From the NCBI RefSeq assembly GCF_009735625.1, contig NZ_CP046244.1:434001-498000 (forward strand): a DNA stretch of 64,000 bases, read 5' to 3'. The notes under the pieces were generated by a model. That model saw nothing but the letters and a program-made list of their open reading frames with translations, was not told where the DNA came from and ran no database searches. The position numbers were made by a program, and so were the translations under genes. Source of the stretch: Moorella glycerini. Its GTDB lineage: Bacteria; Bacillota; DSM-521; Neomoorellales; Neomoorellaceae. Numbering within the stretch: position 1 is the first letter of the stretch; each line of letters begins with the position of its first letter. Of this stretch, positions 25,490 to 62,044 are shown piece after piece.

Positions 25490-27184
25490 CCTGAATCCGT
25501 GACAACCCAATAACAAAATATCTGGATATGGCTCAAAACCTCGCGAAAAATAAGGTATAATAGGCTGGATGGCAAACGAATCCATGTTCACCTGCGAGGT
25601 GCGGCCATGAAATTCATCATTGAACAGTCTGATGAACACCTTACCCCCGTTGCCGGACTGGCTCTGGTGGGGGAAATCATTGATCATACTGCTCTGAAAC
25701 TCAGGCTAAATAAGACCCGGATACCTGGTGTTTCTTCTCCGGATATTTCTCACGGGGATGTTATCACCTCTTACGTGGGCCTGCTTTGCCAGGGTCGCAG
25801 TGATTTTGACCATATTGAGCTTTTTCGGGATGACCCCTTCTTCGCTGCGGCGCTGGGTATTCAGGATGTGCCTTCAAGCCCTACCCTGCGCCAGCGCCTG
25901 GATATGATAGCTCATAGTGTACCCTACCAGGAGATTATCCTCGAGGAAACGGCCAGGTTCCTTAAGAAACTTAAGGCACCGGTAACTCCTGTTACCCTGG
26001 GTTCCAGGGAACTAAAGCGCCAATATGTCCCTTTGGATATTGATGTTACTCCCTTTGATAATTCAAATTCCAAGAAAGAGGGTGTTTCCAGGACCTATAA
26101 GGGCTACGACGGTTATGCGCCTATCTTCGCCTACCTCGGTAGGGAAGGCTACTGCGTCCATACCGAACTGCGGGCCGGGAAACAGCATTGCCAAAAAGGG
26201 ACGCCGGAGTTCCTGCGACAAGCTCTAACCTTTGCTCGCGCTATCACTTCGCTGCCACTTTTAGTACGGATGGATGGCGGTAATGACAGCCAGGATAATC
26301 TCCAGGTCTGTTTGGACCCGGAAATCAAAGCCGATTTTATCATTAAGCGTAACCTGCGCAAGGAAACGCCGGAGGCCTGGCTGGCCATTGCCAAGGAAAA
26401 TGGTACCGCCACCCTAGAACGGGAGGGAAAAACCGTCTATCGGGGGCACCAGATGGTGAAAATCGAGGGTGCTGACACCCCTGTCCGTCTGGTGTATAAG
26501 GTCACCGAGCGGACGATATTACGAAACGGCCAGCTTCTCCTGGTCCCGGAAATTGAGGTCGAAACCTACTGGACCACTTTACCCGACCCGGTGGAGGATA
26601 TCATTACCCTCTACCACGACCACGGCACCAGTGAGCAATTCCACAGTGAAATCAAAAACGATTTAGACCTGGAACGGCTGCCCAGCGGCAAGTTTGCCAC
26701 CAATGACCTGGTGCTACACCTGGGTGTTTTCGCCTACAACATTCTAAGGCTTCTGGGGCAGTTTAGCCTCCCGCTAAAGGAGGTACCGCTGCGCAATAAG
26801 AAAGCTCAACGCCGGCGGCTGCGTACCGTTATACAAAACCTGATTACCATAGCGTCCCGGCTGGTTCACCACGCCCGGCAGGTCAAATTACGATTTGGGC
26901 AGCACAGCCCGTGGTATCCAGCTTTCCGGTACCTATATAAAGCGTTGGCTTAATACAGAACTTCTAGCTCCAGTTAGCTGTATAAGCAGGCTCCAAGCCT
27001 CTTAGGACGAGAGGTCTACTTTGTTATTCCCTTATCCAGGGGACCCAAGGTAAGAGTAAATAGCCTTCGTCCACATAATCAACTTTAGACCCAATTCAAT
27101 GTATCAGCAGATGTTAAATATAACTGTTAATACCATTTACTGTTAGTGCGAGTTTTACCCAGTTGTTATTATCACGGATTCAGG
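25490..27184 (+). mobile_element. IS1380-family element, copy 3
   Basis: The element is 1,695 bp with a perfect 5-bp target duplication TGGAA (25485-25489 and 27185-27189). It differs from the others at least at one base near 27155 (GTTTTACCC against GTTCTACCC). Confidence 0.93.
25607..26953 (+). CDS. IS1380-family transposase (copy 3)
   Basis: This is an intact 448-residue transposase with the same protein sequence as copies 1, 2 and 4. It lies opposite to the AraC gene it interrupts. Confidence 0.92.
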   Translation: MKFIIEQSDEHLTPVAGLALVGEIIDHTALKLRLNKTRIPGVSSPDISHGDVITSYVGLLCQGRSDFDHIELFRDDPFFAAALGIQDVPSSPTLRQRLDMIAHSVPYQEIILEETARFLKKLKAPVTPVTLGSRELKRQYVPLDIDVTPFDNSNSKKEGVSRTYKGYDGYAPIFAYLGREGYCVHTELRAGKQHCQKGTPEFLRQALTFARAITSLPLLVRMDGGNDSQDNLQVCLDPEIKADFIIKRNLRKETPEAWLAIAKENGTATLEREGKTVYRGHQMVKIEGADTPVRLVYKVTERTILRNGQLLLVPEIEVETYWTTLPDPVEDIITLYHDHGTSEQFHSEIKNDLDLERLPSGKFATNDLVLHLGVFAYNILRLLGQFSLPLKEVPLRNKKAQRRRLRTVIQNLITIASRLVHHARQVKLRFGQHSPWYPAFRYLYKALA

Positions 27185-27637: not shown

Positions 27638-29332
27638 CCTGAATCCGTGACAACCCAATAACAAAATATCTGGATATGGCTCAAAACCTCGCGAAAAATA
27701 AGGTATAATAGGCTGGATGGCAAACGAATCCATGTTCACCTGCGAGGTGCGGCCATGAAATTCATCATTGAACAGTCTGATGAACACCTTACCCCCGTTG
27801 CCGGACTGGCTCTGGTGGGGGAAATCATTGATCATACTGCTCTGAAACTCAGGCTAAATAAGACCCGGATACCTGGTGTTTCTTCTCCGGATATTTCTCA
27901 CGGGGATGTTATCACCTCTTACGTGGGCCTGCTTTGCCAGGGTCGCAGTGATTTTGACCATATTGAGCTTTTTCGGGATGACCCCTTCTTCGCTGCGGCG
28001 CTGGGTATTCAGGATGTGCCTTCAAGCCCTACCCTGCGCCAGCGCCTGGATATGATAGCTCATAGTGTACCCTACCAGGAGATTATCCTCGAGGAAACGG
28101 CCAGGTTCCTTAAGAAACTTAAGGCACCGGTAACTCCTGTTACCCTGGGTTCCAGGGAACTAAAGCGCCAATATGTCCCTTTGGATATTGATGTTACTCC
28201 CTTTGATAATTCAAATTCCAAGAAAGAGGGTGTTTCCAGGACCTATAAGGGCTACGACGGTTATGCGCCTATCTTCGCCTACCTCGGTAGGGAAGGCTAC
28301 TGCGTCCATACCGAACTGCGGGCCGGGAAACAGCATTGCCAAAAAGGGACGCCGGAGTTCCTGCGACAAGCTCTAACCTTTGCTCGCGCTATCACTTCGC
28401 TGCCACTTTTAGTACGGATGGATGGCGGTAATGACAGCCAGGATAATCTCCAGGTCTGTTTGGACCCGGAAATCAAAGCCGATTTTATCATTAAGCGTAA
28501 CCTGCGCAAGGAAACGCCGGAGGCCTGGCTGGCCATTGCCAAGGAAAATGGTACCGCCACCCTAGAACGGGAGGGAAAAACCGTCTATCGGGGGCACCAG
28601 ATGGTGAAAATCGAGGGTGCTGACACCCCTGTCCGTCTGGTGTATAAGGTCACCGAGCGGACGATATTACGAAACGGCCAGCTTCTCCTGGTCCCGGAAA
28701 TTGAGGTCGAAACCTACTGGACCACTTTACCCGACCCGGTGGAGGATATCATTACCCTCTACCACGACCACGGCACCAGTGAGCAATTCCACAGTGAAAT
28801 CAAAAACGATTTAGACCTGGAACGGCTGCCCAGCGGCAAGTTTGCCACCAATGACCTGGTGCTACACCTGGGTGTTTTCGCCTACAACATTCTAAGGCTT
28901 CTGGGGCAGTTTAGCCTCCCGCTAAAGGAGGTACCGCTGCGCAATAAGAAAGCTCAACGCCGGCGGCTGCGTACCGTTATACAAAACCTGATTACCATAG
29001 CGTCCCGGCTGGTTCACCACGCCCGGCAGGTCAAATTACGATTTGGGCAGCACAGCCCGTGGTATCCAGCTTTCCGGTACCTATATAAAGCGTTGGCTTA
29101 ATACAGAACTTCTAGCTCCAGTTAGCTGTATAAGCAGGCTCCAAGCCTCTTAGGACGAGAGGTCTACTTTGTTATTCCCTTATCCAGGGGACCCAAGGTA
29201 AGAGTAAATAGCCTTCGTCCACATAATCAACTTTAGACCCAATTCAATGTATCAGCAGATGTTAAATATAACTGTTAATACCATTTACTGTTAGTGCGAG
29301 TTCTACCCAGTTGTTATTATCACGGATTCAGG
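27638..29332 (+). mobile_element. IS1380-family element, copy 4
   Basis: The element is 1,695 bp with a perfect 5-bp target duplication AAAGA (27633-27637 and 29333-29337). It lies only 21 bp past the stop of the corrinoid-protein gene. Confidence 0.93.
27755..29101 (+). CDS. IS1380-family transposase (copy 4)
   Basis: This is an intact 448-residue transposase identical to the other copies. It is convergent with the methyltransferase operon, so read-through from either side could give antisense RNA. Confidence 0.92.
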   Translation: MKFIIEQSDEHLTPVAGLALVGEIIDHTALKLRLNKTRIPGVSSPDISHGDVITSYVGLLCQGRSDFDHIELFRDDPFFAAALGIQDVPSSPTLRQRLDMIAHSVPYQEIILEETARFLKKLKAPVTPVTLGSRELKRQYVPLDIDVTPFDNSNSKKEGVSRTYKGYDGYAPIFAYLGREGYCVHTELRAGKQHCQKGTPEFLRQALTFARAITSLPLLVRMDGGNDSQDNLQVCLDPEIKADFIIKRNLRKETPEAWLAIAKENGTATLEREGKTVYRGHQMVKIEGADTPVRLVYKVTERTILRNGQLLLVPEIEVETYWTTLPDPVEDIITLYHDHGTSEQFHSEIKNDLDLERLPSGKFATNDLVLHLGVFAYNILRLLGQFSLPLKEVPLRNKKAQRRRLRTVIQNLITIASRLVHHARQVKLRFGQHSPWYPAFRYLYKALA

Positions 29333-29998: not shown

Positions 29999-31357
29999 TT
30001 ACCATGATAACAGCCAATTATAGGCCATTCGCTCGAGCCTTTCCCAATTTTTCTTTATTAACTCTTCATCTCCGGGAATAGCCCATTCGGCTTTTTTAAT
30101 TTCCCATGGCGTTACCACGCGAGGTTCAGGTAATTTTACTCCTGGCGGTATATTTGGATTAGATTTTGGCTCCGGAGGAGGACCGTCGGAGTACCTGCCG
30201 TATTCCATAACTGCATCAATCAAAGCCCGGAAATTCTCGGGTTTCGTATCTTCCGGGATATGGCCTCCGCCATGAGGAATCCATCCCCCATCTTTACCGA
30301 CAGTTTCGCATAATAGTTTCACCCGGGCGCGGACTTCATCCGGGGTACCTAAAATCAACATTTCGTTGGGTATTCCGCCGGTAATACACTGCTGGTGTCC
30401 AAAAGCTTTCTTGGCTTCGAAAATATCAGCCTCATTGTCAATATCGCATAGTACTTTACCCCTGGGCAATTCAGCTATATGATGCCAATGCGGGCCCCAG
30501 TTGCCTTCCAGGAACACACGGAATGTATAACCAGCTTCAATCAGCATCTCGACGCCCTTTTTGAAAGTTGGCCAGTAGAAAGTATCAAATTGCTTGGGTG
30601 ATAAGAAGCAAGGTTTATGCGTTGCGACAAAAATCGGATACCTCTTTAGCGGGTCGGCAGTGGCGAGAGCCCTGTTAATGAGATCCGGTAATAAAGCTTC
30701 GCAAGCTTCGATAACGTTGTCGGGCTGCCTGAACATATCTCGCATGATACCATTGAGGCCACGGAGATTATCTGACAGGAAGTCAAAGGGGGCAGCGAAG
30801 TTGCCCATTACCGGTTGCGGCATGCCTACTTCGGCGGCTAACCGGGCGCCTCTTTCCCTGTTTATGGCACCAACAATACCTTGCGCCATCCCCGATTTTA
30901 AGAATGCCATGTAAGAACGTATAGAGCCTCTTTCTTTAAACTCACCGAGTATACGGGGAAGATAGCGCTCCATCCTAAAGGTCACAGGATCATCTATCAT
31001 CAGACGGTATTCATCTTCTTTCATGTACTCGGCTTCGACAAATTGCTGTAAAGACTTGGGCGTAATGTCGCGCCCCGGGACTTTATAGAGGCGATAATCT
31101 ACGACATCCCAGTTGGGGGACCACTGCAAATTGGTTCTAAATGTGTCCAGTTCCGGATACTTTTTGGCGAATTCGATCTCTACTTTAGCCCAGATCTCCG
31201 GGTCATACATAATTTCCTGGTACGTATAGCCCGAGGCTTTTTCGGCGAAATAAGTGGTATTAAATGCAATGGGTATCCGGTCCGTAGGCTCCAGTGCAAT
31301 TGCAGCCTGATAACGCCCCAACCGTTGATTAAATAGCGCTTTAATTTCGTCAGCCAT
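29999..31357 (-). CDS. UroD-family methyltransferase, unit A (with fused C-terminal tail)
   Basis: The 452-residue TIM-barrel protein is of the uroporphyrinogen decarboxylase-like methyltransferase group, in which MtbA, CmuA and O-demethylase methyltransferase I fall. Visible conserved blocks are PTDRIPIAFN, HKPCFLSPKQFDTFYWPTFK, FLEGNWGPHWHHIAELP, CDIDNEADIFEAKKAFGHQQ then CITGGIP, and DGGWIPHGGGHIP. The His/Cys/Glu residues there are the likely zinc ligands, but I cannot assign them. A tail of about 60 residues (EPRVVTPWEIKKAEW to YNWLLSW) follows the barrel. It shares an operon with the corrinoid gene, and the ribosome site TTAGGAGGG is present. Confidence 0.88.
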   Translation of the reverse strand: MADEIKALFNQRLGRYQAAIALEPTDRIPIAFNTTYFAEKASGYTYQEIMYDPEIWAKVEIEFAKKYPELDTFRTNLQWSPNWDVVDYRLYKVPGRDITPKSLQQFVEAEYMKEDEYRLMIDDPVTFRMERYLPRILGEFKERGSIRSYMAFLKSGMAQGIVGAINRERGARLAAEVGMPQPVMGNFAAPFDFLSDNLRGLNGIMRDMFRQPDNVIEACEALLPDLINRALATADPLKRYPIFVATHKPCFLSPKQFDTFYWPTFKKGVEMLIEAGYTFRVFLEGNWGPHWHHIAELPRGKVLCDIDNEADIFEAKKAFGHQQCITGGIPNEMLILGTPDEVRARVKLLCETVGKDGGWIPHGGGHIPEDTKPENFRALIDAVMEYGRYSDGPPPEPKSNPNIPPGVKLPEPRVVTPWEIKKAEWAIPGDEELIKKNWERLERMAYNWLLSW

Positions 31358-36284: not shown

Positions 36285-37082
36285 TTAGTCCTCCAATTTA
36301 CCTTTACGGTAAGACATTAAAAAGTCCTTGCCAAACCGATCATTACCCAATAATAAATTGGTAGTTGTAACCGCAGTCATAATTTTTTTATCCAGGGGAT
36401 CAAGAATAGCGGCATCCATACCGAAAGCCATGCTAATCGTTAAAAAATAACGGTTGATAAGCTTCCTTTTAGGCATGTTATATGAAATGTTGCTTAATCC
36501 CGATACCGTTTTAACCTTAAATAAACGCTTGATCTCAGCCACGGATTGGAAAAATATACTCGCATTTGTATGGCTTGCTGCCAGGGGTAGTACCAGGGGG
36601 TCGATATAAAGGTTATTCAGGTCATAATTGTACTTGGTCAATATTTCGATCATGCGTTCCGTAATCCTGACCCTATCTTCCGCAGTTTTGGGGATGCCAT
36701 TTTCATCTGCAGTTAGACCAATTACCGGGCACTGGTATTCAATTATCAACGGTAACATTCCCTCAAGACGGTTTTTCTCTAGAGATACGGAGTTTATCAT
36801 GACTTTGCTTTTGTCCCCCGCGACAGTATCCAAACCCTTTTTAATCGCTTCAGCCGAAGTACTGTCGATGCAGAGGGGAATATCTGTCACCTCCTGAACT
36901 GTACGCACAAGCCATTCCATATCATCCACTTCATTGCAATGGGCCGTATTCAAATCTAAATAGTCTGCTCCGGCCTCTACTTGCTTAAGCGCCAGCTCTT
37001 TTACGGCAGCAGCATCTTTGTCATTAATAATTTGACAGATATTAGGAATTGCACTATTAAGTTTTTCGCCAATAATTAACAT
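36285..37082 (-). CDS. Methyltetrahydrofolate:corrinoid methyltransferase (MtvA/AcsE-like)
   Basis: The 265-residue pterin-binding TIM barrel has ALKQVEAGADYLDLNTAHCN, DIPLCIDSTSAEAIKKGL, VMINSVSLE and the pterin-site SGLSNISYNMPKRKLINRYF. It moves a methyl group between corrinoid protein and tetrahydrofolate. In acetogens this delivers substrate methyl groups to the Wood-Ljungdahl pathway (the MtvA or methyltransferase II role). It is the only such enzyme found intact in the island, so it may serve several corrinoid proteins. First gene after the SigH-type promoter. Confidence 0.92.
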   Translation of the reverse strand: MLIIGEKLNSAIPNICQIINDKDAAAVKELALKQVEAGADYLDLNTAHCNEVDDMEWLVRTVQEVTDIPLCIDSTSAEAIKKGLDTVAGDKSKVMINSVSLEKNRLEGMLPLIIEYQCPVIGLTADENGIPKTAEDRVRITERMIEILTKYNYDLNNLYIDPLVLPLAASHTNASIFFQSVAEIKRLFKVKTVSGLSNISYNMPKRKLINRYFLTISMAFGMDAAILDPLDKKIMTAVTTTNLLLGNDRFGKDFLMSYRKGKLED

Positions 37083-40511: not shown

Positions 40512-41139
40512 TTAGCCAAAAACGCGTTTACAAAAGCTTACTCCCGTCTGAGCGTCGGTAGCAAAGGCGTCAGCGCCTGTATAGCGGCGGACAATCTCAC
40601 TGCAAATCGTACCGCCGATAATGATCTGGACCTGATCCCTTACCCCTGCTGCGGTAATGGCATCAACCACACTTTTCATCTCCGGGTAGGTGGAGTTGAG
40701 GAGGGCACTGAGACCCAATACCTTTGCCCTGGTCTCACGCACTGCATCTACAAATTTCTCGGCCGGTACATCAACGCCAAGGTCTACGACCTGGAAGCCA
40801 TGACTGCGCAGGAGCTTGACAACTATGTTCTTGCCAATGTCATGGATATGTGCCTTTAACAGTACCGATCACTACTGTCCCGGCTGACTGTTCTCCCCCG
40901 CCGATACTCGCCAGCAGCGGTTCCAGCTTGGCCATAACGCCCTGCAGGATCTCGGCGGAAAACATCAACTCTGTTAAGTAATACTGGCCGGAGGCGAAAA
41001 GGTCCCCTACGGCTGCAATTCCTTCATTGCACTCTTTGATAATATCCACGGGAGAGATACCCTGTTGGAGTTTTTCATCTACAAGGGCACTTACTCTGTC
41101 TTCGTTTAAATCTCTCAAGGCTTCTGCAATATTGGTCAT
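40512..41139 (-). pseudogene. Corrinoid protein, unit B, frameshifted at the cobalt-binding motif
   Basis: The N-terminal cap domain (MTNIAEALRDLNEDRVSALV...) runs into TVVIGTVKGTYP and a stop near 40840. The rest (HDIGKN..., LSALLNSTYPEMK, IIGGTICSE) is in the next frame. Compared with paralogues (GTVKGDIHDIGKN), one base is gained and the Asp codon altered near 40855. This breaks the DxHxxG loop itself. Either a dead gene or a sequencing error. It sits 17 bp after the unit B methyltransferase. Confidence 0.85.
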
Positions 41140-41156: not shown

Positions 41157-42521
41157 CTACTGACTAAGCAGCCAGCTGTAGGCCATCCTCTCGAACCGAT
41201 CCCACCACTGCTTGATCAACTGCTCATCGCCAGGAATTGTCCAGCCATTTTCCGCCTTGATGACTTCCCACGGTGTAACAACACCTGCCTCGGGAAATTT
41301 TACGTATCCTGTCCCCGCCGGGGCAGTCTTGGGCGCCGGGGGTGGGCCGTCATGGTACCTGCCGTATTCCATTACAGCGTCGATAAGGGCGCGGAAGTTT
41401 TCCGGTCTGGTATCCTGCGGGATGTGACCGGGACCATTGGGTATCCAGCCACCGTCCTTGCCGACAGTTTCGCACAACAGCTTGACCCTCTCGCGGACCT
41501 CTTCAGGACTACCCAGGATCAGCATGTCGGTAGGAATGCCACCAGTAATGCACTGCTGGAACCCAAAATCTGATTTGGCTTTAAAGATATCGGCCTCGTT
41601 ATCGATATCACACAGGACTGTCCCTTTGGGGAATTCCGCCATATGGTGCCAGTGCGGGCCCCAATTACCTTCCAGGAAGACCCGGAACTTATAGCCCGCT
41701 TCAATCAACTTCATGACACCCTTCTTGAATGTCGGCCAGTAGAATGTATCAAATTGCTTTGGCGACAGGAAGCAAGGCTTATGGGTAGCGATGAAAATTG
41801 GCAACTGCTTTTGCGGATCGGCGGTAGCTAAGGCCCTGGTCAATTGAAATTCTAATATCACCTCGCAAGCCTCGAGGACGTTATCCGGCTGCCTGAACAT
41901 GTCCCTCATAATCCCATTAAAGCCACGATAAGCATCGGATAGGAAATCAAAAGGCGCGGTAAAGCCACCCATAACCGGTACCGGCATTCCAGCTTCATTT
42001 TTCAACCGGGTAACTCGTTCCCGGTTTATCGCGGCGACCATCCCCATGGCTATGCCCGACTTCAAAAAGGCTACATAGGAGCGGGTGGAACCTCTTTCAC
42101 TGAACTCGCCAAGGATGCGAGGCAGATAAACATTCATCCTGTAACCTGCCGGGTCTTCGATGAACATCCTGTACTCATCAGCCTTCATCCATTCCTGCTC
42201 ATTAAACTGCTGCAAGGATGTGGGCGGAAGATCACGCCCCGGGACTTTCCAGAGGCGATGGTTTGTAATATCCCAGGGAGGAGCCCAGGAGATGTTGGTC
42301 CGGAACGTATCCACCTCCGGGTACTTTTTCGCGAAGTCAACTTCCATTTGGGCCCAGATTTGGGGATCGTACATAATCTGCTGATACGTGTAGCCTGAGA
42401 TTTTTTCAGCAAAATAGTTAGTCGCGAATGCTAGAGGCACGCGATCGGTAGGCTCCAGGGCAATAGCTGCCTGGTAACGTCCCAGCCTCTGGTTATAAAG
42501 TTCCTTGACCTCGTTCGACAT
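41157..42521 (-). CDS. UroD-family methyltransferase, unit B (with fused tail)
   Basis: The 454-residue protein is closely related to unit A: it has PTDRVPLAFATNYFAEKISG, HKPCFLSPKQFDTFYWPTFK, FLEGNWGPHWHHMAEFP and FQQCITGGIP. It also ends with the extra tail (AGVVTPWEVIKAENGWTIPG to YSWLLSQ). It should move a methyl group from an unknown donor to the neighbouring corrinoid protein, but that partner is frameshifted, so it may use another. Strong ribosome site TAAGGGAGG. It sits between MFS transporter 3 and the corrinoid gene in one direction. Confidence 0.88.
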   Translation of the reverse strand: MSNEVKELYNQRLGRYQAAIALEPTDRVPLAFATNYFAEKISGYTYQQIMYDPQIWAQMEVDFAKKYPEVDTFRTNISWAPPWDITNHRLWKVPGRDLPPTSLQQFNEQEWMKADEYRMFIEDPAGYRMNVYLPRILGEFSERGSTRSYVAFLKSGIAMGMVAAINRERVTRLKNEAGMPVPVMGGFTAPFDFLSDAYRGFNGIMRDMFRQPDNVLEACEVILEFQLTRALATADPQKQLPIFIATHKPCFLSPKQFDTFYWPTFKKGVMKLIEAGYKFRVFLEGNWGPHWHHMAEFPKGTVLCDIDNEADIFKAKSDFGFQQCITGGIPTDMLILGSPEEVRERVKLLCETVGKDGGWIPNGPGHIPQDTRPENFRALIDAVMEYGRYHDGPPPAPKTAPAGTGYVKFPEAGVVTPWEVIKAENGWTIPGDEQLIKQWWDRFERMAYSWLLSQ

Positions 42522-44255: not shown

Positions 44256-44549
44256 TTAAGCATAAACGCGCTTACAGAAATTCACTCCAGTCTGAGCATC
44301 GGTAGCAAACGCATCAGCACCGGTATACTGGCGAACAGTCTCGCTACAAATCGTACCGCCGATGATGATCTGGACCTGATCCCTTAGCCCCGCTTCGGTA
44401 ATGGCATCAACGACACCCTTCATCTCCGGATAGGTGGAGTTTAGCAGGGCACTGAGACCCAATACTTTTGCACCGGTTTCGCGCACTGCGTCCACGAACT
44501 TCTCGGCCGGTACATCTACGCCAAGGTCCACAACTTGGAAGCCATGGCT
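44256..44549 (-). pseudogene. Corrinoid protein, truncated at its N-terminal half
   Basis: Only the part after the DxHxxG loop remains: GFQVVDLGVDVPAEKFVDAV, LSALLNSTYPEMK, IIGGTICSETVRQYTGAD. It is very close to the unit B corrinoid protein. Homology stops at about 44549, where unrelated sequence begins. There is no cap domain and no His ligand, so it cannot carry cobalamin in the usual way. Confidence 0.85.
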
Positions 44550-44895
44550 ACCAGGAAAGATTTCGGGTTAAAAAAATTATTGCAGAGGCCCGGAAGCTGG
44601 GTCTCGAGGTAAGAGAAGTCACCCAGGTCGTTTAACAGTTGCATTCTCCAGAAGGATTAACCCGGCTGATGCAAGTTCATGCATTTGCTAACTTGTTATT
44701 GCCTTTTTACGCCTTAACTGGTAGTAATAATTCTTGGCAAAGATCAATTGATTAGAGTTATTTTCGTACTAACAATAATCATACTCAACTAAATTACGCT
44801 CATACCGACCTATGTTATGTGCACACCGAAGCGAGAACCTTTTTTGGACAAAGAAGCAACGGCCTACTAGCACGATTGAAGCCGCGCTTCTATAG
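44550..44895. other. Junction region with an orphan plus-strand fragment
   Basis: These 346 bp lie between a truncated corrinoid gene and the nitroreductase gene. From 44550 the plus strand reads ERFRVKKIIAEARKLGLEVR then EVTQVV and a stop at 44633-44635. This looks like the end of some foreign gene brought in by the rearrangement; I do not recognise it. The rest is AT-rich without features. Confidence 0.4.
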
Positions 44896-46616: not shown

Positions 46617-47873
46617 TCATACCGCAGTCCCATATTCTTTAGTAGCATCTACCCACACTTTAACAAGCTCGGGGTTACATTCGTCTAAGGCAACGCTGGC
46701 CGACATTATGAAACCGCCATTCTTGCCGAGGGCCTTGCACATTTTCCTGGTATACTCCCGCACTTGTTCATGAGAACCACCCTCAAGCAACGATACCGGG
46801 AAACCGCCTACTATCGTCATTACGTCGCCTACGATTTCCTTCACCTTGAACATATTGCTGCTTTGGAACATGCCGATCGTCTTGCCCTTTGGCAACTCCC
46901 GCAGGTACTCGAGGCGCTGGTCCCAGACGCCTTCATAAAACGGGTATGGTTTCAGCCCCGCCTTGATGAGATCCAGCATCAGTGCCTTTAACTGGGGCCA
47001 GTAAAAAGTCTCAAACTGTTCTATGGACATGAACCCGTCTGAACCGCGATGCAGCGGGATAAAGATTAGTTTTCTCCCGGTCGCGCTGGTAGTCTGAATA
47101 ACCTGTTCCACTGAGAAGCGGCGGATTTTTTCCTGGGCCGCCAATAACTTGTCCGGGCAGCGGTACATATCCAAAAAAACTCCCCGCATGCCGCGTAAAT
47201 TGTCGGCCAGAAGGTCAAAAGGCGCCAGAGTGGTTGCACCAAAGACCCGCACATCTACCGGGAAGCCCAATGCCTCCATCCGGCGGGCATACTCTGCAGT
47301 CCGGGTCGCCGACTGCGCATACCAGTCCGCTACCTTTAACAGGGCTTCCAGCGCCGAACGCAGGGACGGTTTGTTAAGCACTGCAACCCCTGCTAGGCCA
47401 CCATATCCTCTCAGGAAAGACGTAAGTACAGGTAAATCGGCAAATCCTTCCAGGGCGCTGTAGATACGCGGGACAAACTTGCGCAGCGTAAAGTCGGAAG
47501 GATCTTCGATAAACTCATCATACTCTTCGGCTTTCATGAACTCGCCTTCAACAAACTGAAAGGGCTGGTCCGGCCCCAGGCCGTAACCGGGCCACTTGGT
47601 CTGCCGGTCGCCCAGTATTACGCTCGGCATGTGAGTACCAAATGTACCTATTCCAAAGGCAGCGTCCGGCTGGTAGTAGAGAGCCCATTTTTCGAGGAGT
47701 TCCTGTGCCTTATCAGGGTTGTCATGCAGTTCCTGTTTGGTGACGCCGCCAAGACGGGCCAGCATGTAACTGAAATTCAATGTAATGGGCACCCGGTCCG
47801 GTACCTTCATGTCGTACGCGTCTAAAATACGCTGGCGGCGCTCCGCCAGGAGTTTTTCAGGAGAGGTGGTCAT
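46617..47873 (-). CDS. UroD-family methyltransferase, unit C (no tail)
   Basis: The 418-residue protein has VPDRVPITLNFSYMLARLGG, IPLHRGSDGFMSIEQFETFY, PFYEGVWDQRLEYLRELPKG and IVGGFPVSLLEGGSHEQVRE. It lacks the about 60-residue tail of units A and B; it ends directly after WVDATKEYGTAV. It differs from A/B also in PLHRGS in place of THKPC, shared with units D and E (PLHKG). A different substrate class is plausible. Its start is 3 bp behind the corrinoid gene stop, so both are translated together. It resembles unit E most. Confidence 0.86.
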   Translation of the reverse strand: MTTSPEKLLAERRQRILDAYDMKVPDRVPITLNFSYMLARLGGVTKQELHDNPDKAQELLEKWALYYQPDAAFGIGTFGTHMPSVILGDRQTKWPGYGLGPDQPFQFVEGEFMKAEEYDEFIEDPSDFTLRKFVPRIYSALEGFADLPVLTSFLRGYGGLAGVAVLNKPSLRSALEALLKVADWYAQSATRTAEYARRMEALGFPVDVRVFGATTLAPFDLLADNLRGMRGVFLDMYRCPDKLLAAQEKIRRFSVEQVIQTTSATGRKLIFIPLHRGSDGFMSIEQFETFYWPQLKALMLDLIKAGLKPYPFYEGVWDQRLEYLRELPKGKTIGMFQSSNMFKVKEIVGDVMTIVGGFPVSLLEGGSHEQVREYTRKMCKALGKNGGFIMSASVALDECNPELVKVWVDATKEYGTAV

Positions 47874-52275: not shown

Positions 52276-52899
52276 TTATTGACCAAACACCTCATTAGCC
52301 ACCTTAAGGCCATCGCTAGCGGTGGTGGCAAAATAATCCGCACCTACATGCTGTTTTACCGTCTCGTTGATATAGTTGCCACCTATTATCACTTTGGTAT
52401 TCAAGCCCTCACCTCGAATAACATCGATGGTTTCCTTCAACGCCGGCTGGCAACTCGTCAGCAGCACGCTCATGCCCACCAGAGGTGCTCCCGTTTCCTT
52501 TATAGCCTCCACAAACTTCTCCTTGGGTACGTCTACACCCAGATCCACAACCTTATACCCCGAACCTCTAAGAAGCATTATCACGATGTTCTTACCTAGA
52601 TCGTGGATGTCCCCCTTAACCGTACCGATGACAATCGTCCCTTTATGTTCGGTTCCCTGTCCGGTTAAATGGGGCCCTAAAAGATCCATAGCTCCCTTCA
52701 TAATCTCGCCGGCCATAACTAGCTCGCTCAAGAAATAATCGCCACGCTCAAAGCGGTTGCCTACTTCTACCATCCCTTCTTGCAAAGCCTTAACAATCTC
52801 CAAAGAGGCTGCTCCGTTCCCCAATAGCTCCTTAACCCCGGCTAATACCTGTTCCTCTTCCAGTTCAGCCATGGCTTTGGTTAAGGTTTCCCTGGACAT
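52276..52899 (-). CDS. Corrinoid protein, unit D
   Basis: The 207-residue protein starts MSRETLTKAMAELEEEQVLA with GGAGGAG before it, which favours this start over one 10 codons upstream. The B12 domain has GTVKGDIHDLGKNIVIM (cobalt ligand His present), MSVLLTSCQPALKET and IIGGNYINETVKQ. Third gene of unit D after methyltransferase and tail gene. It is the closest intact relative of remnants 1 and 2. Confidence 0.9.
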   Translation of the reverse strand: MSRETLTKAMAELEEEQVLAGVKELLGNGAASLEIVKALQEGMVEVGNRFERGDYFLSELVMAGEIMKGAMDLLGPHLTGQGTEHKGTIVIGTVKGDIHDLGKNIVIMLLRGSGYKVVDLGVDVPKEKFVEAIKETGAPLVGMSVLLTSCQPALKETIDVIRGEGLNTKVIIGGNYINETVKQHVGADYFATTASDGLKVANEVFGQ

Positions 52900-52977
52900 A
52901 TTTATCTCCTCCATTCCTCTATCACGCATTGTGGTACGATGGCTTCGCTACACCGGGCTCGAGGCAATTCTTTTACG

Positions 52978-53151
52978 CTACCTTTGTACCCAGAACCATA
53001 TGAAAGCATAAGCAAAAGCATCCAGTTTTTCCCATTCAGCCTTTACTATCTCCTCATCCCCGGCCAGCTCCCCGAACTCTTCCTTCTTGATCCTCCAGGG
53101 TAAGCAGGTGCCTGGTTCGGGTACAAAAGAGGTTATCTTGCTTTCTCCCAT
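52978..53151 (-). CDS. Stand-alone 57-residue tail domain of the UroD-family methyltransferase
   Basis: ATG at 53151 with ribosome site AAAAGGAGG (53163-53171) encodes MGESKITSFVPEPGTCLPWR, then IKKEEFGELAGDEEIVKAEW and EKLDAFAYAFIWFWVQR. It aligns with the C-terminal tails of unit A (LPEPRVVTPWEIKKAEWAIP...ERMAYNWLLSW) and unit B. In unit D the methyltransferase stops exactly before this tail (53188), and the tail has become its own gene 36 bp downstream, ahead of the corrinoid gene. It has one aromatic end (FIWFWV). It may be a docking piece for the methyltransferase or corrinoid partner; the function is not known. Confidence 0.85.
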   Translation of the reverse strand: MGESKITSFVPEPGTCLPWRIKKEEFGELAGDEEIVKAEWEKLDAFAYAFIWFWVQR

Positions 53152-53187
53152 CGGTACCTAATCCTCCTTTTATGGTATATTCGACCC

Positions 53188-54372
53188 TTAATAAACCCCG
53201 TACTCTCGTGCTGCTTCTGTCATAGCAATAATGTTCTCCCGCTTGGCATCACCCATTACCACGCCTCCTGGACCAAGGACAAATCCGCCATCGCAAGCCA
53301 GCTCATCAATGGCGCGTTTTACACAATCCTTTACTTCTTGCGGCGTACCGTAGGTCAAAAGGGTAGTGGGAACACCACCGAACAGACAGAACCTGCCGCC
53401 GAGGATCTCCTTCGCCTTCTTAGCGTCTGTTGTATCGATTACGAAGACAATGCTCTTTTCCGGAAGCTCGGCGATCTTATCCAGGTAGGGCGTCCAATCA
53501 CCTTCAGCAAAGAACCACGTCCTCTTACCTTTAGCCCAGAGACCTTCGATTACTGCTTTCAAGGTCGGCCAGTAAAACTTCTCCCATTGCTCCCTGCTCA
53601 GGAAGGGATAGGCGCCCTTGTGTAACGGAGCGGAGCACGGCAGGGTCGTGTCTCCCCGGGAACCGATCATGGCGTAGGCGATATTATGAGGCACAAGAGC
53701 TTCACAGGCGGCCAGAACCTTTTCCGGCCGGCGCCTGAGGTCGGTTAGAATACCTTTGGTACCCCGCAAGGTGTCTCCCAGCGTATCGAAGGGCGCTTTA
53801 GTGAAGCCACTTGTACCTGCAACTAACCCATATTCTTTTCTCCATCTTTGGGCCGCAGCGCCCATTATATTGCCTTGCATGGCATAAGCCGCCGCACTCT
53901 TGAGGAGGGCGATACTGGCACGGTAGGATCCCGGCTCCGCAAACTCTTCGTTGATACGCGGTAAATAATTCTTAACCAGCCATCCCGTGGGATCAGCTAT
54001 AAAATCGTCATACTCATCCGGCCCCATATATTCTGCCTCTACATACTGAAAAGTGGATTCCTTGGGTAGATGGAAGCCAGGAAAACGGTATAACTTAGAG
54101 CCAAATGCATCAAACATGGGTGGCCACCATAAAGAGGGTCCTCCCCGGAAAAGGTCAAAGTCCAAATCGCGCAGGACTCTGTCAATTTCTTGGGTCGTTA
54201 TTTCAATAGCTTTATTTAAATCGTAATATATCTCCTGTAAATAAGTATCTGTATATTTAACTATCCATTCTCCCACGGAGAAGCCAACCGGAACCTTATC
54301 CGGCTTCCCGCATTCCAGAACTGTAAGGTAACGATTCAGCCTCTCTTGAAAAAGTTTCTCTTTATCGCTCAT
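53188..54372 (-). CDS. UroD-family methyltransferase, unit D (tail encoded separately)
   Basis: The 394-residue protein has GKPDKVPVGFSVGEWIVKYT, APLHKGAYPFLSREQWEKFY, FFAEGDWTPYLDKIAELPEK and FCLFGGVPTTLLTYGTPQEV, and ends EAAREYGVY. It is the shortest of the five and the most diverged. A tail gene and a corrinoid gene follow in the same direction with good ribosome sites, making a three-gene unit. Its partner after the barrel is therefore the 57-residue protein. Ribosome site AAAGGAGGG. Confidence 0.86.
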   Translation of the reverse strand: MSDKEKLFQERLNRYLTVLECGKPDKVPVGFSVGEWIVKYTDTYLQEIYYDLNKAIEITTQEIDRVLRDLDFDLFRGGPSLWWPPMFDAFGSKLYRFPGFHLPKESTFQYVEAEYMGPDEYDDFIADPTGWLVKNYLPRINEEFAEPGSYRASIALLKSAAAYAMQGNIMGAAAQRWRKEYGLVAGTSGFTKAPFDTLGDTLRGTKGILTDLRRRPEKVLAACEALVPHNIAYAMIGSRGDTTLPCSAPLHKGAYPFLSREQWEKFYWPTLKAVIEGLWAKGKRTWFFAEGDWTPYLDKIAELPEKSIVFVIDTTDAKKAKEILGGRFCLFGGVPTTLLTYGTPQEVKDCVKRAIDELACDGGFVLGPGGVVMGDAKRENIIAMTEAAREYGVY

Positions 54373-57163: not shown

Positions 57164-57694
57164 ATGCAACTGGTATACAATTTCGGTATTTCCCTGGAGG
57201 ATTATGCTGCCCGGGGTAAGAAAAATGAGTTTCCCGTCATAGAGTCTTGCCCTATCTGTATGGCCCGGCAGGCTCTAAAGCGGCATGGTTTTTACTGGCG
57301 TAATGCCGGTAGTGACTCGGAAAAGTGGCTACAGCTGCCCATCTGCCGCTTTTGGTGCCGCTCCTGCCGGCACACCTTCTCTCTTTTGCCTTCCTTTCTC
57401 CTGCCGTATTACCAGTATTCCCTTAAGTTCATTCTGGACTGTCTCATATATTTCTTCTCCAAGGCCCGCCTCCTTATTTACTACCAGCTGCTCCAGTTCT
57501 ACCGCCGCCGTTGGGCGAAGAACATGAATTGCATCCAGGCCTTCTTCCGGGAGCAGGGTTACCAGGAAATAATCCCGCCGGAATTTAAACAAAGGGCCAT
57601 AAAATTGCTGGAAATGATTGCCGCGTTCCCCAACGCCGAAACCTTTTCCCAAAGGTTCCATAATCATTTCCGGCGCAATTTTATGGCTAATTAA
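57164..57694 (+). CDS. Zinc-ribbon protein of the compact transposon (DUF6431-like)
   Basis: The 176-residue protein has two CxxC knuckles: ESCPICMARQALKRHGFYWR and CRFWCRSCRHTF, forming a likely zinc ribbon near residues 27-70. An aromatic helical region and a basic tail follow. Similar small proteins often precede transposase/ATPase pairs in Clostridia and are named DUF6431. It may bind DNA or choose targets; no TnsA-like nuclease or TniQ motif is seen. The ribosome site GGGGGGCTG lies before the ATG at 57164. Confidence 0.7.
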   Translation: MQLVYNFGISLEDYAARGKKNEFPVIESCPICMARQALKRHGFYWRNAGSDSEKWLQLPICRFWCRSCRHTFSLLPSFLLPYYQYSLKFILDCLIYFFSKARLLIYYQLLQFYRRRWAKNMNCIQAFFREQGYQEIIPPEFKQRAIKLLEMIAAFPNAETFSQRFHNHFRRNFMAN

Positions 57695-57776
57695 TTTTAC
57701 CATGCTTTCCCCGGTTCCGTAAAGCCTCCCTGCTACATTAGCCACCACACACCTTTTGCCTGTCCTGGGGGACAGG

Positions 57777-57816
57777 TTAAGGTTAAACTGGTAAATGACC
57801 GGACCGGTTAACCTTA
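57777..57816. promoter_or_regulatory. Inverted repeat ahead of the transposase gene
   Basis: TTAAGGTTAA...CTGGT and ACCGGTTAACCTTAA form an imperfect dyad just upstream of the transposase ribosome site. It is a possible operator or translation-control hairpin inside the transposon. Confidence 0.45.
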
Positions 57817-57836
57817 AATCCTGGGGAGGGGTTGTG

Positions 57837-59093
57837 ATGGACGAGAAGGACCGGGAAAATATCGCTCTTTTTCGCTTTAGCTTGATTGCGCCGTTGTTGC
57901 AGGGTCAGGTAGCCAGCAGGAAGGCCTACCTGGAGAGTATTACGGCCAGACCCCATGAAGTACCGTATTATGGCCTCTGCGACTATAGCCCCCAGACCAT
58001 TGCCAGCTGGCTCAGGGATTACCGCCGCGAGGGGTTTGAGGGGTTAAAACCGAAAAGGCGTTCTGACCGGGGAAGGCCGCGGGCCTTATCCCCGGAGTTA
58101 CAGGAGCAACTCCTGGCCCTGCGCCAGGAGGAGCGTTCCTGTCCGGCTTCTGTCTTTTATGAACAACTGGTGGCTAAAGGTGTTATTTTACCGGACGCCG
58201 TTTCTTACGCTACCATTTACCGTTTCCTGAAATCCAGGGGGCTTTTAGGCCGGGAGATGCGGCGGGAGCCGGAACGGAAACGCTTTGCCTATGATACGGT
58301 GAATACCCTCTGGCAGGGGGATGTGGCGGCCGGGCCTTACCTTCGCGTTGGCAACAAAAAGGTGGCTACTTTCCTCTTTGCTTTTATCGATGATTGTTCC
58401 CGCCTGGTGACTTTTGCCCAGTTTTTTACTTCCGAGAAGTTTGAGTCTTTGAAGGTGGTCTTCAAGGAGGCTATCTTACGCCGGGGCATTCCGCAGATGG
58501 TCTACGTGGATAATGGTAAAATCTATCGTTCGGAGCAGCTGCAGCTGGCCTGCGCGGCCCTGGGGATAGCCTTGATCAATACTAAACCCTATGACCCGCA
58601 GAGCAAGGGTAAGATCGAAAGGTTCTTCTTGACCGTCAGGCAGCGTTTCTTGCCCCTGGTTAAAGATGAACACCTTAAATCTCTGGATAACTTGAACCGC
58701 TCTTTCTGGCAGTGGCTGGAGGAAGATTATCACCGCCAGGTCCACAGTGCTTTGGGTATGAGCCCCCTGGATAAGTTTATGTCCCAGTTCAGCCAGGTTA
58801 AGATGGTGAGCGACCCGGCTGTTCTGGAGCCGCTTTTTTTCAAGCGGGAGGAACGGCGGGTACATCATGATGCTACTATCTCCATTAACAAGCGCCTTTT
58901 TGAGGTGCCGCCTCAATTTATCGGCAACCGGGTGGAGGTGCGCTTTGACCCGGAAAAACTGGAGCGGGTCTTGATTTTTGTGGCCGGTAAAGAGGTGGCG
59001 GTGGCACAGCCGGTGGCGCTCAGTGTTAACGCCCGGGCAAAGCGGGAGAGCAAACTTTCTTTTGCCAGCTTACAGGGAGGGGGCCAAAACTAG
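57837..59093 (+). CDS. DDE (rve-type) transposase of the compact transposon
   Basis: The 418-residue protein has an N-terminal helix-turn-helix region (TIASWLRDYRREGFEGLKPK) and then an integrase core with Asp in LWQGDVAAGPYL, Asp in MVYVDNGKIYRSEQ and Glu in SKGKIERFFLTV. A C-terminal beta-barrel like Mu/TnsB transposases completes it. The start at 57837 follows GGGGAGGGG. It cuts and joins transposon ends, presumably helped by the ATPase gene that overlaps its end by one base pair of spacing. Confidence 0.9.
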   Translation: MDEKDRENIALFRFSLIAPLLQGQVASRKAYLESITARPHEVPYYGLCDYSPQTIASWLRDYRREGFEGLKPKRRSDRGRPRALSPELQEQLLALRQEERSCPASVFYEQLVAKGVILPDAVSYATIYRFLKSRGLLGREMRREPERKRFAYDTVNTLWQGDVAAGPYLRVGNKKVATFLFAFIDDCSRLVTFAQFFTSEKFESLKVVFKEAILRRGIPQMVYVDNGKIYRSEQLQLACAALGIALINTKPYDPQSKGKIERFFLTVRQRFLPLVKDEHLKSLDNLNRSFWQWLEEDYHRQVHSALGMSPLDKFMSQFSQVKMVSDPAVLEPLFFKREERRVHHDATISINKRLFEVPPQFIGNRVEVRFDPEKLERVLIFVAGKEVAVAQPVALSVNARAKRESKLSFASLQGGGQN

Positions 59094-59094
59094 A

Positions 59095-59895
59095 ATGTAC
59101 CAGGCTTTTTATGGCTTAAAAGGGGCTCCTTTTGGCAAGGAGCTAAAACCCCAGGATGCCTTCCTTTCCTGCAGTTTAAAAGAAACGAGGGCCCGGCTGG
59201 AGTATTTATCCCGCGTCCGGGGCATGGGGGTCCTGGTGGGGGAACCGGGAGCCGGTAAGACCTTTGCCTTGCGGGTCTTTTGTGCTAATTTAAACCCGGC
59301 CCTCTTTAAGGTTATTTATTTGCCCCTGGCCACAGGGACGGTCATGGATTTTTACCGCGGTTTGGCCCGGGGCCTGGGGGAAGAACCGTCTTTCCGCAAG
59401 ATTGACCTTTTTCACCAGATCCAGCAGGCGGTCCAGGTGTTCTTCCGGGATAAAAAGATTACGCCCGTCTTCATCCTGGATGAGATGCACCTGGCTAACC
59501 CCAAATTCCTGCTGGACCTGGCCCTGCTCTTTAATTTCGCCATGGACGCCTTTAATCCTTTTATCCTGGTCCTGGCCGGCTTGCCTTTTTTGTTGAGCCG
59601 CTTGGAGTTGAACCAGACCCAGTCTCTGGCCCAACGCCTGGTGGTTCGCTTCCAGGTGGAACCTTTAAACCGTGAGGAGGTGGGCGCCTACCTGGAGCAC
59701 CATTTATCCCTGGTGGGGGCTACCAGGCCTTTATTTGAGCCGCCTGCCGTCGAGGCCATCGCTTCTCGCTCCCGCGGCTGGCCGCGCCTGGTGAACAACC
59801 TGGCCCTGACTTCCCTCCTCTGGGGCGCCCAGCTTAAAGCCCAGCTGATTAGTGCTGATGTGGTCCGCCAGGCAGCTGCCGAAATTGGCCTCTAA
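59095..59895 (+). CDS. AAA+ ATPase of the compact transposon (TniB/TnsC/ExeA-like)
   Basis: The 266-residue protein has Walker A GEPGAGKTFALRVF (near residue 48), Walker B PVFILDEMHLANP, and sensor and arginine regions towards the end (SRSRGWPRLVNNLALTSLLW). It corresponds to the target-selection ATPases of Tn7/Tn5053/IS21-like systems and to ExeA. It starts one base past the transposase stop, so both are made together. The longer open frame upstream overlaps the transposase and is not used. Confidence 0.88.
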   Translation: MYQAFYGLKGAPFGKELKPQDAFLSCSLKETRARLEYLSRVRGMGVLVGEPGAGKTFALRVFCANLNPALFKVIYLPLATGTVMDFYRGLARGLGEEPSFRKIDLFHQIQQAVQVFFRDKKITPVFILDEMHLANPKFLLDLALLFNFAMDAFNPFILVLAGLPFLLSRLELNQTQSLAQRLVVRFQVEPLNREEVGAYLEHHLSLVGATRPLFEPPAVEAIASRSRGWPRLVNNLALTSLLWGAQLKAQLISADVVRQAAAEIGL

Positions 59896-59906
59896 GGGTG
59901 GTGGCT

Positions 59907-60209
59907 ATGCTTAAGCTTGCTTCCCCCAGAGACGTGGAAAGTCTCCTGGAGATCCTGGCTTTCGTCCTCTGGGCGAATACTTCTGGTTCCTACGGTGAGG
60001 AATTGGAACGCCCGGTATTGGATTTCGCCCGCGACCTTTACGCTGAATTGCTAAAATACCTGGAGTCTTTCTATACCGCCCGCGAGGAACCCCATTATTA
60101 CAGCTTTATTTGCCAGTTGCAACTGGAACAAGGATTTGATTTCCAGAGAAAACGCCTGGCTGCCCTTGATAAAAAATTGGCGGAACGGTTCAAGGCCCCT
60201 TCTTTTTAG
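59907..60209 (+). CDS. Small acidic protein of the compact transposon, unknown function
   Basis: The 100-residue protein starts MLKLASPRDVESLLEILAFV and is mostly helical, with aromatic and acidic residues (LYAELLKYLESFYTAREEPH) and a basic end. No motif is recognised. It starts 11 bp past the ATPase stop, and the ribosome site is GGGTGGTGG. A GTG three codons earlier is also possible. Being the last gene of the operon inside the inverted ends, it belongs to the element. Confidence 0.65.
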   Translation: MLKLASPRDVESLLEILAFVLWANTSGSYGEELERPVLDFARDLYAELLKYLESFYTAREEPHYYSFICQLQLEQGFDFQRKRLAALDKKLAERFKAPSF

Positions 60210-60596: not shown

Positions 60597-61265
60597 TTAA
60601 ACATGAACTTGTCTCCCTTTGGTACTTACAACCCTCATCCCCAGCCAGCGCCGGCAGATGGCCACTCCTTCCCCCGCCTCACGCACCCAGGCGTCGGCAC
60701 CCACATACTGGCAGACACGCTCATTGACCAGGCCTCCTATAAGAACTTTGATCGCAGGTTTAGGAGCCAGCATGCGGATCAGTTGGACGGTCCGGCGCAT
60801 GGATTCAAAAGAAGAAGTCAGTAAAGCAGATAACCCCAAAATCCGGGCGCCTGTTTCCTGGAGAATATTCAAAAAAATGTCAGGCGGGATATCCACCCCT
60901 GCATCGTAGACGCGGAATCCTTCACATCGAAGCAGGGAGATAGTTATGTTCTTACCGATGTCATGGATATCGCCCTCTACCGTACCAAAAACGATATCGG
61001 CTTTACCCGGTTGCTCCTGAGAAATTGGTAAAATGGCCAGCAATGGTTCTAGAACCCGCAGGACCTCCTGGAAAATTTCTGCCGACATTACCAGGTCACT
61101 TAAGAAATATTCTCCCGCTGCATAACGTTCCCCTACGATTTTAAGCCCCTGCCGGCACTCTTCTACAATTTCCAGAGGCGGCTGGTGCTCGCGGAGGGCT
61201 TGCCCGACCAGTTCAAGAACCTTCTTTTCTTCTAATTCTGCCATAGCCATCGTTAAGGGTCCCAA
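60597..61265 (-). CDS. Corrinoid protein without neighbouring methyltransferase
   Basis: The roughly 222-residue protein has a cap domain (MAMAELEEKKVLELVGQALR) and a B12 domain with GTVEGDIHDIGKNITISL (His present), LSALLTSSFESMRRTV and LIGGLVNERV. It is more diverged than the others and has a basic end (RVVSTKGRQVHV). Start uncertain: TTG at 61265 or GTG at 61268, both behind AGAGGTGG; ATG 61250 is the alternative. It follows the GntR regulator with slight overlap of frames and shares its promoter. No UroD-type gene adjoins, so it may be a shared or sensing carrier. Confidence 0.83.
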   Translation of the reverse strand: MGPLTMAMAELEEKKVLELVGQALREHQPPLEIVEECRQGLKIVGERYAAGEYFLSDLVMSAEIFQEVLRVLEPLLAILPISQEQPGKADIVFGTVEGDIHDIGKNITISLLRCEGFRVYDAGVDIPPDIFLNILQETGARILGLSALLTSSFESMRRTVQLIRMLAPKPAIKVLIGGLVNERVCQYVGADAWVREAGEGVAICRRWLGMRVVSTKGRQVHV

Positions 61266-61312
61266 CACAAACCACCTCTCATCTTTATTGGTAGCAGGCC
61301 TGTACCCAGCGG

Positions 61313-62044
61313 CTAAATTACCGTGGGAACCGAAGTCAATTGATACCGATCGCCACGGTATAAACACCATCCCCACCCCACCGGCCGGCCATCCCCGGCC
61401 AGGAGTACCTGCTCCAGCAAGAAGGCCGGCGAACCCGGCGCCACCCGTAAAGCCCGGGCCTCTTCCTCATTAAGGACCGTCGCTTGCAAGACCATTTTAC
61501 TGCTTATCGGAAGAGCCTCGGCATGTTTCTCTACCATCTCCGGGAGTGCCTGGTACTGGAGCTCGTTTTCAAGGATGGGCCGTCCCCGGTCATAGCGGAG
61601 GTATTTCCGGTCATAGGCCAGGGGCTCCCCGCCGGCCAGAAGGGAACGGCGGATATAGAGCACCTTCGTCCCTGCCGGAACTTGTAATTTCCCGGCTGCC
61701 TTTTCCGGCGCGGGAACCAGCCTGGCTTCCAGCAACCGGACACTGGACGTTAAGCCCCGCGCAGCCACCTCCTTGTGGAATTCTTCCATGACAAAAACAG
61801 CGCGGTCCAGCTCGGGCCGGGAGACAAAAGTACCTTTCCCTCGTTCAGTGCGAATGAGACCGGCCCTGGCCAGCTGGCTCAGGCTGCGGCGGACGGTCAT
61901 GCGGCTTAACCCGTATTTTTCGCTCAGCTCTGCTTCGGAGGGCAATGCTTCCCCCGGGCGGTAGTCACCCGCCCTGATCTGGCGTTCCAGAATTTGCGCC
62001 AGCTGATAGTAGGGAGGTACAAAAGAGTTTTTGTCTATAGCCAT
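61313..62044 (-). CDS. GntR-family (HutC/UTRA) transcriptional regulator
   Basis: The 243-residue protein has a winged helix domain (YQLAQILERQIRAGDYRPGE, LPSEAELSEKYGLSRMTVRR) and a UTRA ligand-binding domain (TKVLYIRRSLLAGGEPLAYD to the C-terminus). Such proteins bind operators near their own genes and release on ligand binding. Placed at the head of the island, with a SigH-like promoter at 62200-62228, it may sense the methylated substrate or a product. Target genes cannot be read from sequence alone. Confidence 0.87.
   Translation of the reverse strand: MAIDKNSFVPPYYQLAQILERQIRAGDYRPGEALPSEAELSEKYGLSRMTVRRSLSQLARAGLIRTERGKGTFVSRPELDRAVFVMEEFHKEVAARGLTSSVRLLEARLVPAPEKAAGKLQVPAGTKVLYIRRSLLAGGEPLAYDRKYLRYDRGRPILENELQYQALPEMVEKHAEALPISSKMVLQATVLNEEEARALRVAPGSPAFLLEQVLLAGDGRPVGWGWCLYRGDRYQLTSVPTVI

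Follow-up and report, generated by a model that had tools for sequence, protein, structure and literature searches.

The window analyzed here, a 64,000-nt stretch of Moorella glycerini DNA, contains the genes of UroD-type methyltransferases designated units A to E. This work is centered on unit D, whose genes and associated features, all on the minus strand, are listed below.

52276 to 52929, minus strand: unit D corrinoid protein, MtvC-like (PF02310 and PF02607), directly downstream of the small gene
52978 to 53151, minus strand: stand-alone tail gene of unit D, an open reading frame (ORF) of 57 amino acids, MGESKITSFVPEPGTCLPWRIKKEEFGELAGDEEIVKAEWEKLDAFAYAFIWFWVQR, conserved beside every D-type barrel
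53152 to 53187, minus strand: 36-nt spacer with the Shine-Dalgarno (SD) sequence AAGGAGG at 53163 to 53169
53188 to 54372, minus strand: unit D methyltransferase I barrel, 394 amino acids, PF01208 UroD-type and MtvB-like, a member of a 35-row clade in which all barrels are split from the tail
36285 to 37082, minus strand: MtvA-like methyltetrahydrofolate:corrinoid methyltransferase (NF005719, E 3.9e-98)

The unit D barrel matches PF01208 with 86.7 bits (gathering score 23.9; E 2e-24), and units A, B, C, and E also score above the gathering threshold. The barrel gene ends with ...REYGVY-TAA. The small ORF starts with ATG, 11 nt downstream of AAGGAGG, and this combination of SD and start occurs only once within the 64-kb window. 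A sequence-only reading of the same DNA had proposed that the unit D tail is a 57-residue gene with its own ribosome site, and the ORF at 52978 to 53151 agrees with that proposal. The ORF is in frame with the barrel and is preceded by three in-frame stops (TAA, TAA, and TAG) contributed by the barrel end and the spacer. Between the barrel, the small gene, and the corrinoid protein gene, the minus strand shows neither terminator-like nor promoter-like sites. As in MtvABC systems, a corrinoid protein gene is adjacent and a methyl-H4folate:corrinoid methyltransferase gene is present; the latter, MtvA-like, lies ~15 kb from unit D, while in many relatives it is found directly upstream of the D-type barrel. 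On the plus strand at 57164 to 60209, transposase-like and AAA ATPase-like ORFs (judged from the ORFs only) separate the unit E corrinoid protein from a GntR/corrinoid pair (60597 to 62044) that often adjoins the D operon in relatives.

The small protein was compared with the C termini of the sibling methyltransferases:

29999 to 31357, minus strand: unit A methyltransferase with fused tail, 452 amino acids; tail with linker at ~30002 to 30190
41157 to 42521, minus strand: unit B methyltransferase with fused tail, 454 amino acids; tail with linker at ~41160 to 41354
46617 to 47873, minus strand: unit C methyltransferase, tail-less, with ~27 extra residues before a long extension helix
55034 to 56290, minus strand: unit E methyltransferase, tail-less, with ~23 extra residues at the same place as in C

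In the alignment, units A and B extend 63 and 65 residues beyond the barrel end, while units C and E stop no more than 1 to 2 residues from it, as had been claimed for C and E. The small protein is 44% identical to the A tail and 36% identical to the B tail over 42 to 46 residues. A single-sequence search of its own genome retrieves both (E 4e-9 and 1e-5, respectively); the family profile, whose seed alignment includes both tails, matches them at E 4e-22 and 4e-21. No further convincing tail copy was found in this genome beyond A, B, and D; a weak fourth match (L004) overlaps another ORF and was dismissed as chance. The tails of ~60 residues described earlier for A and B are thus real in extent, but the conserved module comprises only ~45 residues (x-P-W-E-x-K ... 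G-D/N-E ... W ... A-Y-x-F/Y-I/L-W), the remainder being a variable linker. The unit D small protein carries this signature, and its gene lies directly 3′ of a UroD-type methyltransferase. Split barrels terminate at an identical aligned position, so the proposed split exactly at a domain border is borne out.

Several other features of the window were recorded. The reading frame of the unit B corrinoid protein (40512 to 41139, minus strand) shifts at GTVKG|HIHDIGKN, leaving 99 amino acids with the remainder in another frame; this is either a pseudogene or the result of a sequencing error. A second unit B–like corrinoid fragment at 44256 to 44567 (minus strand) contains the C-terminal half only, with 84% identity to the unit B copy across 312 nt. 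Four ORFs, each exactly 448 amino acids long (7661 to 9007, 20686 to 22032, 25607 to 26953, and 27755 to 29101) are possibly copies of one insertion element.

To follow the small gene in the phylum, 398 genomes were searched with the tail profile and with the unit D barrel as query, the D-type barrels found with the latter being at least 51% identical to it. The profile yielded 29 stand-alone small genes and the query 29 D-type barrels, in one-to-one pairing: every one of the barrels has a small gene directly 3′, and every stand-alone gene occupies that position. This is the genome-wide search beside UroD-type genes that had been suggested; no stand-alone tail gene away from a D-type barrel was found in the 398 genomes. 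The usual order in relatives is MtvA-like gene, barrel, tail, and corrinoid protein, with the corrinoid protein or MtvA located elsewhere in a few loci. In close relatives, the small gene is likewise its own short frame, with 65 to 81% identity. Its dN/dS ratio is mostly 0.05 to 0.25 where dS is unsaturated (one recent pair reaches 0.47), so the small protein is conserved under purifying selection. A tail acting in trans on tail-less enzymes was not seen in G003 and G020, which hold tail-less barrels and no tail anywhere in the genome.

A good SD sequence precedes nearly all small genes of the D clade, and the frame of the small gene relative to the barrel is 0, 1, and 2 in 16, 12, and 7 cases, respectively. 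The three relative frames, together with the separate SD, exclude read-through as a general mode of expression; programmed read-through is further contradicted by the multiple in-frame stops. In all 35 members of the D clade, barrel and tail are separate, so the split is not a recent stop mutation. Neither outcome named earlier as refuting (relatives with one unbroken unit D gene, or a small protein lacking conservation) was observed. Two individual cases are of note. At L030:7032-7202 (G024, D-type), the tail frame has no in-frame usual start codon, and a canonical ribosome binding site plus ATG lies one base out of frame. L024 and L026, the two D-type operons of the genome taken as M. thermoacetica DSM 521, have almost the same tail gene and share one downstream spacer sequence, whereas their barrels have diverged further, which reflects recent recombination between them.

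When the scan was widened to a single genome for each species, 80 named loci were obtained. The fused form was found in Bacillota, Deltaproteobacteria (Desulfobacterota), Actinomycetota, Chloroflexota, Spirochaetota, Acidobacteriota, Planctomycetota, Hydrogenedentota, Armatimonadota, Nitrospirota, and Bathyarchaeota or other Thermoproteota, and a second occurrence of the split form was found in Planctomycetota (Pirellulales, Thermoguttaceae). Samples from three further phyla (294, 297, and 300 genomes) contained tails only in fusion with a UroD barrel or beside one, one of these loci being broken. No stand-alone tail without a barrel was found in the genomes searched. Within the tail-bearing clade, the module is always present, in cis or in trans. 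Two fused-tail methyltransferases stand in tandem in one gene cluster at L074/L087 and at L090. In the fused-tail gene L081 (~5490 to 5760; G334:C4:133606-133731), an in-frame TAG stands precisely where the invariant tryptophan is expected (VRQI*EKVDNLGHMYIW), which may be a nonsense mutation, a sequencing error, or amber read-through; L080, its paralogue within that genome, is intact.

In a tree of 128 barrels, 66 of which carry a fused tail, the A/B type comprises 45 rows, every one of them fused (SH-aLRT 100), the D type comprises 35 rows, every one of them split (SH-aLRT 99), and a third clade of 31 rows is a mixture of fused and split forms (SH-aLRT 100); L149 and L155 were counted as split. 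Units C and E fall into a tail-less group. When all split rows were placed in one clade in a 46-row test, the cost was 59.6 log units (p-AU 2.3e-9), and a single origin of the split was rejected. The module thus survives separation more than once. Fused and split forms have been interconverted at least twice, a number that is well supported and rises to as many as ~5 if single metagenome-assembled genomes are trusted. Since fused forms occupy one whole clade and most branches of another, fission is the favored direction of change.

The family is not represented in the resources that were consulted. The 57-amino acid protein matched no Pfam family (PF01208 included) and no NCBIfam family, 25 diverse members of the tail family matched no Pfam family, and the tail profile matched no PDB chain. 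We found no literature on a small O-demethylase subunit, the original description of mtvB (Naidu and Ragsdale 2001) lying outside the coverage of the search. The module is a real small subunit or domain, old and so far without a name, within an enzyme class that is already known.

Among the closest known counterparts is MtvB of the vanillate O-demethylase MtvABC of Moorella thermoacetica. G005, taken as M. thermoacetica DSM 521, has two D-type loci, whose barrels are 77 and 73% identical to unit D. The neighbors (MtvA-like, MtvB, and MtvC) are the same as well. MtvABC has been published as a system of three components, whereas both mtvB-mtvC loci of G005 carry the small gene between B and C. 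The genome of DSM 521 was annotated with Prodigal (PMC4599090), and the locus tags for mtvB and mtvC given in PMC13391211 appear to leave exactly one number between the two genes at both loci. We infer that the barrel, the small gene, and the corrinoid protein correspond to c03170, c03180, and c03190 and to c13020, c13010, and c13000, an assignment for which 12020 in PMC13391211 must be a misprint of 13020 and some gene names there must have been exchanged. With one free tag per locus, the small gene is probably annotated in DSM 521, without a name. The earlier expectation that it is too small for gene finders and probably unannotated is therefore doubtful.

Other relatives were compared as well. 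The closest solved sequence to unit D is the chloromethane methyltransferase I CdmB of Acetobacterium dehalogenans (PDB 9rui; UroD fold, E 1.9e-38), which, unlike unit D, is haloalkane specific; its chain stops at 429, level with the end of the barrel, and bears no tail. Since CdmB is active (PMC13222342), the fold does not in general depend on a tail. MtoB of Methermicoccus shengliensis is an archaeal, MtvB-related O-demethylase of 47 to 48 kDa (PMC8630106). HemE (uroporphyrinogen decarboxylase) and MtaA share the barrel fold, and their alignments end at ~392, before the tail.

The predicted structure places the tail on the barrel. AlphaFold2, run with 70 alignment rows for unit A, gave the fused chain a pLDDT of 95.1 and a pTM of 0.92, the tail having a pLDDT of 88 to 96 with helices at 418 to 422 and 431 to 451 predicted at high confidence. 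In this model, the barrel superimposes on UroD with a Z of 26 over 321 residues and on the MtaA-like 4ay7 with a Z of 24.6; the structural matches are filled by the barrel and stop at residue ~392, leaving the tail outside all of them. Because the D barrel, spacer, and small gene share one frame, they could be folded as a single chain with stops read as glycine. This read-through chain gave a pLDDT of 91.7 and a pTM of 0.91; spacer residues 404 to 417 fall below 50, while the tail (421 to 464) reaches 91 to 96, with helices at 426 to 433 and 440 to 463. The suggested structure prediction of D barrel plus tail, here without the corrinoid protein, thus yields a confidently folded tail. By simple arithmetic, an unplaced tail would limit pTM to about 0.88 to 0.90; both values exceed this ceiling, so the tail is placed on the body in the models. 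The proposal of an independent folding or docking module is partly supported: the module is independently encoded and conserved, and its confident predicted folding in cis and in the read-through chain speaks for a piece able to fold and dock, with a putative partner and role.

Three partly independent hints from sequence comparison point, weakly, to the first half of the extension helix 150 to 181 of D. The strongest couplings between tail and barrel are A155/L156-F50, N141-E39, and P118-V36. The signal is weak (~87 effective sequences, with 6 of the 20 top pairs in the region): one of 14 shuffles was equally good, the top score was exceeded in one shuffle, and the signal did not reappear in the split-only data. 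The coupling test is not significant by itself and may serve as a lead only. Second, R151 and K158 are conserved in 97 to 98% of tail-bearing but in ~30% of tail-less barrels. Third, 12 of 15 tail-less barrels, C and E among them, have 20 to 27 extra residues between positions 138 and 194. As a general replacement of the tail, this insertion would serve only partly, since L166 and L167 lack both. Taken together, the hinted site pairs R151, A155, and K158 of the D helix with F50, L43, V36, and D32 of the tail.

We consider it rather likely that the 57-residue protein serves an MtvB-type methyltransferase I as a small, obligate partner subunit docked on the barrel. Enzymes of this type remove the methyl group of a methoxylated aromatic and pass it to Co(I) on the corrinoid protein. 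The small protein, the same module as the fused C-terminal tails behind their variable linker, would form a short helix and a 24-residue helix packed on the barrel, the likeliest site being the helical extension (D residues ~118 to 181) and particularly the first half of helix 150 to 181. There it may complete the enzyme by stabilizing the extension and by shaping or capping the substrate pocket or the corrinoid entry. Noncovalent docking would suffice, which would explain why the gene can be fused or split. The docking site, the stoichiometry, the catalytic effect, and the aromatic substrate of unit D are inferred.

The small protein could instead be a dissociable docking adaptor that mainly recruits the corrinoid protein (or its activase or methyltransferase II) to the barrel and leaves again in the course of the cycle, the split allowing exchange between systems. 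The conserved order of barrel, tail, and corrinoid protein, the length and the variability or disorder of the linker that joins barrel to tail, and the coexistence of several paralogous systems in the window are consistent with this idea. Gene order alone, however, fits an adaptor and a permanent subunit equally, corrinoid proteins are also used by tail-less relatives, and the high pLDDT and pTM, obtained with no corrinoid protein modeled, suggest that the tail packs on the barrel itself; we regard an adaptor as unlikely. Still less probable is an assembly factor needed for folding or dimerization of the barrel and not for turnover. The extensions of CdmB mediate dimerization and form substrate tunnels (PMC13222342), so the hinted contact would fall on a dimer interface, and the small protein is helical and always co-encoded; a chaperone, however, need not stay covalent, and the tail is fused in more than half of the barrels in the tree. 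A regulatory peptide (sensor or repressor partner) merely sitting in the operon would fit the small size and the GntR-type regulators near many loci but would leave enzyme fusion in many phyla and the strict one-to-one linkage unexplained, making it very improbable. Finally, the small gene might be a functionless remnant of a fused gene that a stop mutation or frameshift broke only recently. The shared frame in the window and a few in-frame single splits in metagenome assemblies (L138, L157, and L161) might point that way, but for the uniformly split D clade this reading is refuted by purifying selection, the SD sequences, and the three relative frames, and its likelihood is negligible.

Evolution has retained the small protein beside the enzyme, so the three-protein scheme of the textbooks has probably missed a fourth component. 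It is conceivable, at somewhat less than even chances, that this component is an essential subunit of the classical vanillate O-demethylase that has gone unnoticed since the system was described, and that the module acts across bacteria and archaea as a micro-domain shifted repeatedly between cis and trans and setting substrate access or corrinoid docking. An active M. thermoacetica MtvB preparation with a Km of 0.09 mM for vanillate is cited in PMC13222342; if the small protein was absent from it, activity in vitro does not strictly depend on the subunit. Should the tail be a real subunit, D-type MtvB expressed heterologously without it may be crippled, and published kinetics would need to be rechecked. 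The module is also a natural case of a cis-or-trans domain, one that has switched independently two or more times at one and the same border, and provides a sequence signature for a large methyltransferase clade so far recognized only as uroporphyrinogen decarboxylase–like. Demethylation of methoxylated aromatics brings lignin carbon into acetogenesis and methanogenesis, and the D-type enzyme is probably used by acetogens for stripping methyl groups from lignin compounds.
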